From contig NC_088300.1 in NCBI RefSeq assembly GCF_032854445.1, forward strand, positions 81,195,084 to 81,259,083: a DNA stretch of 64,000 nucleotides. The letters are read 5' to 3'. Made by a program: the position numbers and the translations under genes. This document shows positions 14,901 to 56,428 of the stretch, in pieces (position 1 is the stretch's first letter; every line of letters begins with the position of its first letter). A model generated the notes under the pieces. That model saw only the letters and a list, made by a program, of their open reading frames with translations, made no database searches and was not told the DNA's origin. This stretch comes from Liolophura sinensis. Lineage: Eukaryota > Mollusca > Polyplacophora > Chitonida > Chitonidae.

Positions 14901-17900
14901 CTGTGATTGTGTTGAGTTACATATAGATTCACCTGTACCCTGTCAGCTGAGATCTGTGATTGTGTTCAGGTACATATAGATTCACCTGTACCCTGTCAGC
15001 TGAGATCTGTGATTGTGTTCAGGTACATATAGATTCACCTGTACCCTGTCAGCTGAGATCTGTGATTGTGTTCAGGTACATATAGATTCACCTGTACCCT
15101 GTCAGCTGAGATCTGTGATTGTGTTCAGGTACATATAGATTCACCTGTACCCTGTCAGCTGAGATCTGTGATTGTGTTCAGGTACATATAGATTCACCTG
15201 TACCCTGTCAGCTGAGATCTGTGATTGTGTTCAGGTACATATAGATTCACCTGTACCCTGTCAGCTGAGATTTGTGATTGTGTAGGTGTACTTTCCTGAC
15301 CTAATGCTTTATTTTAGTTTTGTGATGTGATGTGATGTATCTATCCCTACATTCTCTGATGACAACTGTAACATGTGTCTCTACTTATTAAGTATATTTA
15401 CCATTTCAGAGTATTTCCTTTATTGTTTACCTTCATGGAAATAATTTGGCCAAAGCCCCGTGTTTGATTCTGGCTCCTCTTTCTGTGACAGGAAACTGGC
15501 AAACAGAGCTCCAGAAGTGAGTCAGTGTGTGTCTGTGTGCAAGTGTGTACTGTGTATGTGTGTACTGTGCAATGCCTATGTATGTGTGTACTGTGCAATG
15601 CCTGTGTATGTGTGTACTGTGCATTTCCTGTGTATGTGTATACTGTGCAATGCCTGTGTATGTGTACTGTGCAATGCTTGTGTATGTGTGTCCTGTGCAA
15701 TGCCTGTGTCTGTGTGTACTGTGCAATGCCTGTGTATGTGTGTACTGTGCAATGCATGTGTATGTGTGTACTGTGCAATGCCTGTGTACTGTGCATTTCC
15801 AGTGTATTTGTGTACTGTGCACTACCTGTGTATGTGTGTACTGTGCAATGCCTGTGTCTGTGTGTACTGTGCAATGCCTGTGTATGTGTGTACTGTGCAA
15901 TGCCTGTGTGTGTGTACTGTGAAATGCTTGTGTATGTGTGTACTGTGCAATGCCTGTGTATGTGTGTACTGTGCAGTGCCTGTGTATGTGTGTACTGTGC
16001 AATGCATGTGTATGTGTGTACCATGCAATGCCTGTGTACTGTGCATTTCCTGTGTGTGTGTGTGTGTACTGTGCAATGCCTGTGTATGTATGTATCAACA
16101 AGAGAAAAAACAACAAGCTGTTTTGCCATAAAAAATACAAAAATACAGACATGGAACATGGTTCTTTTAGGTTTGCTCCTGGGCTGGAAGTGATGACATA
16201 TATGGGAAACAAAGACTTCCGAGAGAATCTACGACATAAAATTACAAGGGGTAAAAAGAAAGGAAAGATCCCCTTTGACGTCCTGCTCACAACATATGAG
16301 GTAATGGTGCTTTGAGATAAGTCAATAAAAATTGTCCATTTGTTATGGTCGTAATCAGTCATGCGTTCATAAAAGCTATTGATTTAGCTTATTTCACCCT
16401 ATACCTTCAAGTTAACACGTAGTGCATTGATTTAGCTTATTCCACCCTATACCTTCAAGTTAACATGTAGTGCATTGATTTAGCTTATTTCACTATATAC
16501 CTTCAAGTTAACATGTAGTGCATTGATTTAGCTTATTTCACTATATACCTTCAAGTTAACATGTAGTGCATTGATTTAGCTTATTTCACTCTGTATCTTC
16601 AAGTTAACATGTAGTGTATTGATTTAGCTTATTTCACTCTGTATCTTGAAGTTTACATGTAGTGTATTGATTTAGCTCATTTCACTCTATACCTTCAAGT
16701 ATTTATATCTTTATATACAAACAAATTCAGTGGTATTGGTGCTTTGTATAGCGCGAAAAAGAGAAAATCTGCTAGCGCTGTGGAAATACCACCCTCCTCC
16801 CCCTCACACCCATCCCCGCTGAAATATAAAGCCAGCCAATCAGAATGGTGATATTTTAAATACTTGTTTCTCATTGGCTACCAAGTCAAGAAGAAGTTAA
16901 TTAAACATCGTGTTATAGTGAGGTTTAGTTTCATGATTCCCGTCTGATGAATTTGTTGGCAAATGAATTTTCAAATGACGAAAATTTGAAAATTATTTCA
17001 TTATTTTCATTGATTGGCAAAGTACAGGGACATCTCAGCACAGTATATTGTTTTATTCTCTTTTTTTTTCTTAAAGTGTCACAAAAAATGTTTAGTCTCT
17101 TCTCAATTCTGTAAATATCAACTGTTGTTGTACAAAATTTGTCTCAACTTTGAATATGCATATCTTTTCTTTGTAAATTTGTTTTGGTGAATGCACAAAA
17201 CTGTTTTTGTTTCCTATTCTCATGACAGATTCTTCTGAAGGATGAGTCATTTCTTGGACATCTGTCCTGGTCATTGTTGGTTGTGGATGAAGCTCACAGA
17301 CTGAAGAACCATGAGTCTATCCTACACCAGGCACTGTGTCAGGTAAATGAGGAATCTATCCTACACCAGGTACTGTGTCAGGTAAATGAGGAATCTATCC
17401 TACACCAGGCACTGTGTCAGGTAAATCAGGGATCTATCCTACACCAGGCACTGTGTCAGGTAAATCAGGGATCTATCCTACACCAGGTACTTTGTCAGGT
17501 AAATGAGGAGTATGCATGTACTGTGCAATGCCTGTGTTTGTGCCTGTGCACTGTGTCAAGTAAATCAGGGATCTGTCCTACACCAGGCACTGTGTCAGGT
17601 AAATGAGGAATCTATCCTGCATCAGGCACTGTGTCAGGTAAATCAGGGATCTATCCTACACCAGGCACTGTGCCAGGTAAATCAGGGATCTATCCTACAC
17701 CAGGCACTGTGTCAGGTAAATGAGGAATCTATCCTACACCAGGTACTGTGTCAGGTAAATGAGGAGTATGCGTGTACTGTGCAATGCCTGTGTTTGTGTC
17801 TGTGCACTGTGTCAAGTAAATCAGGGATCTATCATACACCAGGCACTGCATCAGGTAAATCAGGGATCTATCCTACACCAGCCACTGTGTCAGGTAAATC

Positions 17901-56428: not shown

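Follow-up and report, generated by a model that had tools for sequence, protein, structure and literature searches.

Gene content of the window

The window, i.e. the whole 64.0-kb stretch of DNA analysed here, lies on contig C6 of the 609-Mb, 632-contig genome of the chiton Liolophura sinensis. According to PMC11068029, the assembly was published as Liolophura japonica, a name that its authors later corrected to L. sinensis (PMC12441733). The array-bearing gene of the window is CHD1L/ALC1, on the plus strand. Twenty-one exons were joined into a stop-free CDS of 882 aa, which matches human CHD1L (PDB 7otq) over residues 13-882 (E=1.3e-296), and it is this alignment that anchors the exon edges. 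Three more exons follow further downstream.

5887..49484, + strand: CHD1L/ALC1 coding exons 1-21; Pfam finds SNF2 and helicase C domains, and the macro-domain part is assigned from the human CHD1L alignment
53742..56428, + strand: three more exons with a BRCT domain (LIG3_BRCT), at 53742-53903, 54932-55014 and 56309-56428 (stop in the last)

The LIG3-type BRCT (Pfam 2.7e-14) is thus encoded just 3′ of the CHD1L macro-domain exons, and its three exons are perhaps the end of the CHD1L gene. CHD1L here looks as if it carried a C-terminal BRCT; the exon joining the two parts was not found within the window. Because the reading frames of exons 49376-49484 and 53742-53903 do not match, one small exon is probably missing from the model between 49484 and 53742. 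Introns are numbered by the placed exons, so that intron 24 of the first-pass annotation of this DNA is intron 23 here.

One intron of the BRCT part (53904-54931) has the look of a U12-type AT-AC intron: it starts with ATATCCTTT, holds TTCCTTAAT near its end and ends in AC, and the frame is continuous across it. A second such donor, at 49485, begins with GTATCCTTT. Both are presumably U12-type, going by the consensus.

Tandem arrays at the splice junctions of CHD1L

Arrays or tandem copies lie at the donor side of the following introns:

17316..19697, + strand: intron 5 donor array, in several TRF rows; 39-nt unit (27 nt of exon 5 plus 12 nt of intron)
25449..26683, + strand: intron 9 donor array; 47-nt unit (28 nt of exon 9 plus 19 nt of intron), 25 decoys
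27217..27580, + strand: intron 10, four diverged copies of about 90 nt, each with the exon 10 tail (about 40 exonic nt) and GT
30250..31795, + strand: intron 13 donor array (TRF span 30316-31795); 67-nt unit including about 38 nt of exon 13 and ACG|GTG, about 22 copies
55009..55618, + strand: intron 23 donor array; 38-nt unit with only 6 exon nt (TCTGAG) and the donor, 16 copies

The intron 5 array contains 52-57 decoy junction copies, the count varying with the method. TRF, which assigns the donor arrays periods of 38-67 and 3.6 to 26.4 copies per row, did not detect the copies in intron 10 (27217..27580); these are old. As the first-pass annotation had stated, the unit sequences differ among the donor arrays.

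To score recurrence of the exon tail, the last 40 nt of the exon were aligned locally to the 600 nt that follow the donor and the best score was taken. Donors 5, 9, 10 and 13 reach 26.6-32.4, and the remaining 19, which include donor 23, stay at 6.0-9.8. At the same four donors, the repeat unit holds 27 to about 40 nt of exon sequence together with the splice junction, the property that defines the so-called mirages. The earlier proposal that five introns were seeded by a segment spanning the junction therefore stands for introns 5, 9, 10 and 13 and is weaker for intron 23, where the unit includes the donor with 6 exon nt only.

Acceptors of the same gene have been copied as well:

22417..22658, + strand: exon 7 acceptor duplicated; 131-nt unit, 1.8 copies, 10 nt of exon
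33706..33835, + strand: exon 15 acceptor duplicated; 64-nt unit twice, 98% match, 2 nt of exon
45989..46035, + strand: diverged copy of the intron 17/exon 18 junction at the exon 18 acceptor, with 37 nt of the exon head
48234..48849, + strand: array resembling the exon 20 acceptor junction, perhaps a weak case of duplication; 40-nt unit, 16 copies, AG kept in 0/10 copies

With the 8-nt threshold applied to the control genes below, CHD1L has 4 donor and 2-3 acceptor cases; a loose count gives 5 and 4.

Several other arrays of the gene deserve mention in their own right. Directly 3′ of the intron 9 junction array, the units of a 17-nt array (26675-27080) hold a donor-like TTGTAAGTT without exon sequence. 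A near-identical 23-nt unit (two differences after rotation) occurs in introns 5 and 6, in arrays at 19703-21892 and 22526-22607 that flank exon 6. In intron 2, a 53-nt array lies on both sides (6961-8893 and 14719-15283) of minus-strand retroelement-like ORFs (9943-14070), as if the element had landed inside the array; we take these ORFs to be BEL/Pao-like.

Array density and chance expectation

Minisatellites make up 64% of CHD1L (30 merged arrays, 32.3 of 50.5 kb). Arrays cover 37.4 of the 64.0 kb of the window and 12.3% of the bases of the control loci. Given this richness, several junction hits are to be expected in the gene, which was itself picked because of its donor arrays. In a model that drops 30 seeds with a mean unit of 70 nt into an ancestral intron length of about 17.3 kb, the sum of 15.2 kb outside arrays and a single unit for each array, random placement yields 2.39-2.75 donor-spanning seeds per 23 donors, an expectation that is slightly low because TRF left the intron 10 array uncounted; 4-5 are seen. 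The corresponding probabilities within CHD1L are 0.22-0.30 for at least four and 0.09-0.14 for at least five. Once array density is known, the donor series is statistically unremarkable; CHD1L probably owes its several such arrays to the sheer number of minisatellites in its introns and not to anything special about its junctions.

Junction arrays in other genes

Stop-free exon matches of four families, 212 exons in total, served as controls: SNF2 (33 of the 39 stop-free matches, 58 matches in all; left out were three in the window, one long single-exon match and two others), myosin (62 of 62, of 81 matches), kinesin (89 of 90, of 132 matches; C3:22661996 left out) and UCH (28 of 32, of 57 matches; four long ones left out). 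Splice edges were predicted for them using the reading frame and the splice-site consensus, and the exons are partly non-independent, several coming from the same gene.

Among the first 184 exons, copies of exon sequence on the intron side with a score of at least 13 were found at 12 donors and 5 acceptors, against 1/368 for reversed targets and 2/368 on the wrong side. Inspection at a threshold of at least 8 exon nt kept 10 donors and 3 acceptors, one of the latter added by a TRF criterion. The UCH exons contributed 0/28 donors, one clear acceptor and one ambiguous one. Acceptors C2:5378501 and C10:35008738 entered by the TRF criterion, and C6:28004936 is ambiguous. Pooled, 10/212 donors, of which C6:81506676 is less certain because it was predicted 118 nt beyond its match, and 4-5/212 acceptors bear arrays, and the difference between the sides is not significant (p 0.18-0.30).

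Donor C1:26642195 and acceptor C1:26643291 were excluded as tandem alternative myosin exons, donor C8:32218957 because its score of 15.2 came without an array, and acceptors C1:4562919 and C9:4628084 because in both the real acceptor is apparently situated past the array. The exons at C1:26642195 and C1:26643291 (locus L062) are similar to each other and probably mutually exclusive. A further observation from the genome is a run of eight consecutive matches to the hemocyanin beta-sandwich at C8:37880506-37891931, as in one hemocyanin gene.

Junction arrays thus occur in SNF2, myosin and kinesin genes and, on the acceptor side only, in USP genes. Striking cases are found on both sides. At the myosin donor C12:684214 a 31-nt unit is repeated 18 times, and at the kinesin acceptor C8:682171 there are about ten copies of a 64-nt unit. 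The myosin exon at acceptor C2:5378501 (locus L107) is preceded by nineteen copies of a 32-nt unit, which comprises a nearly invariant pyrimidine tract, TAG and 9 exon nt; AG is retained in 17/18, and the whole forms an array of 3′ splice sites. Either boundary, 5′ or 3′, can therefore be found duplicated, in CHD1L and in control genes alike, and the series is not the donor-only one for which it had initially been taken.

Array edges around exons

If exon-intron borders favoured the start of tandem duplications, be it through R-loops, replication or repair intermediates or AG|GT-primed duplication, array edges should cluster there. Starts of TRF arrays (score at least 50, period at least 10) were counted per kb around the 184 exons from families other than UCH. 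On the donor side the rates are 0.75 in the last 60 nt of the exon, 0.71 in the first 100 nt of the intron and 0.32 at 100-450 nt; the uncurated acceptor mirror gives 0.46, 0.76 and 0.39.

Some of these figures lean towards junction targeting. Array edges are about twofold more frequent within 100 nt of exons than in deep intron (donor ratio 2.26, p=0.046; acceptor 1.95, p=0.069), donor exon tails exceed deep intron by a ratio of 2.37 (p=0.054), and four or five donors have been hit in a single gene. Yet the deep-intron windows hold unmasked exons, which lowers the baseline of these very ratios; the donor exon tail does not differ from the adjacent intron (0.75 vs 0.71/kb, p=1.0); exon edges of both sides together reach 0.60 vs 0.44/kb in all flanking intron (p=0.31); and the within-gene probabilities for CHD1L are 0.09-0.30. 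We therefore consider junction-targeted birth of the arrays to be quite unlikely. The shared junction mechanism invoked by the first-pass annotation finds no support in the same figures, since random placement already expects 2.4-2.75 donor hits and the edge rate is not significantly above that of flanking intron. That annotation had also named the outcome that would speak against it, namely overlap of arrays with exon ends no more frequent than expected, and this is roughly what the sampled exons gave, with no significant excess.

Minisatellites founded across a junction are hence widespread and two-sided, roughly as random minisatellite births in genes would give, and a junction-specific mechanism is unneeded. 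A mild local excess of arrays near exons, about twofold within 100 nt, is possible. A bolder version, in which exon edges, donor exon tails included, are a mild hot spot of minisatellite birth (~2-fold within 100 nt) and copying of this kind has affected several percent of all splice sites, strikes us as doubtful. Were it true, boundary-spanning repeats would be a main route of intron growth in this chiton and its genome a large natural library in which splicing, faced with many equally strong donors, would have to go by position only and take the outermost. At acceptors, the exon head has fewer array starts than the adjacent intron (0.28 vs 0.88 curated, p=0.056; 0.46 vs 0.76 uncurated, p=0.47), perhaps an indication that duplications are eliminated more frequently on this side.

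Decoy splice sites

Most of the copied donors still look like donors. GT is kept in 157/166 decoys from 14 arrays, the exceptions being C6:81506676 (0/3) and C10:23493386 (9/13), and 108/166 match or exceed the score of the real donor. For acceptor decoys, AG is kept in 39/58 (8 arrays), against 44.5 expected from other dinucleotides. Many repeats accordingly carry a GT or AG signal.

One might suppose that repeated donors persist because they are useful, for instance by retaining U1 snRNP on long introns or by yielding in-frame length variants. The strength of the decoys relative to the real donor fits this idea, as does the presence of GT in 161/172 decoys of 10 arrays (arrays with fewer than 4 copies, among them C6:81506676, excluded), which lies above other GT/AC sites of the unit in 9/10 arrays (p=0.006). 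So does the frame, which stays open through the first intron 5 copies, where each decoy adds 13 aa, so that in-frame length variants are a possible by-product of these copies. The GT excess, at p 0.006 to 0.05 in the initial comparisons, was nevertheless dropped as a sign of special retention: it is not significant against neighbouring sites with gaps set aside (p 0.24-0.32, the intron 13 array being mis-registered in this control). Unit lengths are divisible by 3 in 5/14 cases, as by chance. Functional retention is accordingly very improbable. Given the local-site control, decoys are neither visibly purged nor demonstrably kept.

The continuity of the coding sequence is consistent with undisturbed splicing and suggests that the first, 5′-most donor is the one used. 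The CDS is intact and the decoy donors persist, which bears out the earlier suggestion that selection tolerates such arrays.

Origin of the arrays

We think it likely that the arrays are mirages, i.e. minisatellites that began as a tandem duplication lying by chance across an exon-intron junction. An ordinary tandem duplication by slippage or break repair would produce two junctions, and unequal exchange or further slippage would enlarge the array. The outermost junction would leave the exon intact and be used, for donors the 5′-most of many near-identical sites. As the remaining copies fall within the intron, the birth of such an array would be nearly neutral.

Where the units came from was addressed by genome matches for two arrays, in counts that are lower bounds as very common words were skipped. 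For a 352-nt piece of the intron 9 mirage the only matches are at its own locus, and the same holds for the tested piece of the intron 16 array (46-mer). Taken with the exon sequence inside the mirage units, these results suggest arrays born locally. A dispersed satellite or transposon-borne repeat was rejected for the two arrays tested, neither of which has its unit at many genomic places.

Could the arrays instead be newly made introns, derived from AG|GT tandem duplication as in the Rogers/Hellsten model of intron gain? AG|GT is present in the units, and PMC3087553 proposes the model for amphioxus mirages. In CHD1L, by contrast, the arrays lengthen introns that are spliced as a whole, and exons 5, 9, 10 and 13 show no exon-tail insertions when the CDS is compared with human CHD1L. 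Intron gain is thus extremely unlikely to explain them.

Comparison with known systems

The first-pass annotation knew of no description of such a series, yet arrays of the same kind are on record. Amphioxus mirages (Adh3, the globins BflGb6/BflGb9, TnC and PGBD5) are minisatellite-like tandem duplications of 5′ or 3′ exon-intron boundaries, with AG/GT signals in many repeats and splicing reported as undisturbed (PMC3087553 and PMC3902484). In PMC3902484, lancelet PGBD5 shows imperfect duplications, and the splice sites duplicated by the Adh and TnC mirages are said to give no aberrant mRNA. The human CBS 31-bp VNTR, c.1444_1467+7(16_21), by its name spans an exon end and intron start (24+7 nt) in 16-21 copies, and CBS 844ins68 duplicates an acceptor junction (PMC2630376). 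These resemble the chiton arrays in having a unit that lies over the junction, and differ in being two polymorphisms of one human gene. In human segmental duplications, variable internal tandem repeats, mostly minisatellites, alter exon/intron structure, some of them at an exon-intron boundary; these concern recent primate paralogs, and the boundary repeats are discussed there as a source of novel introns (PMC2812944). Ordinary intronic minisatellites are like mirages in period, copy number and local match and unlike them in having a unit wholly within the intron.

No report of molluscan mirages was found among the open PMC papers searched, and the term ‘tandem repeat’ is absent from the main text of two chiton genome papers. 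As far as the literature was searched, what is new is the molluscan host, the estimate of frequency (about 5% of sampled donors) and the many decoy donors that equal the real one in strength and give no indication of being purged. Should roughly one donor in 20 have been self-copied, as in our sample, the genome would offer a wealth of natural experiments on how splice sites are chosen, in which similar, often equal or stronger 5′ sites trail the real one at a spacing of 26-125 nt. The about 18 copied 3′ sites ahead of one myosin exon allow the opposite question, that of acceptor choice, to be asked.

The chiton belongs to another phylum than amphioxus and other genes are involved; the amphioxus cases named in those papers are single genes, whereas here several mirages lie in one gene, a frequency over 212 other exons can be given and the arrays are described from the genomic sequence of one assembly. 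With their range now reaching beyond lancelets to a mollusc, mirages may be a side effect of genomes rich in minisatellites and not a cephalochordate oddity.
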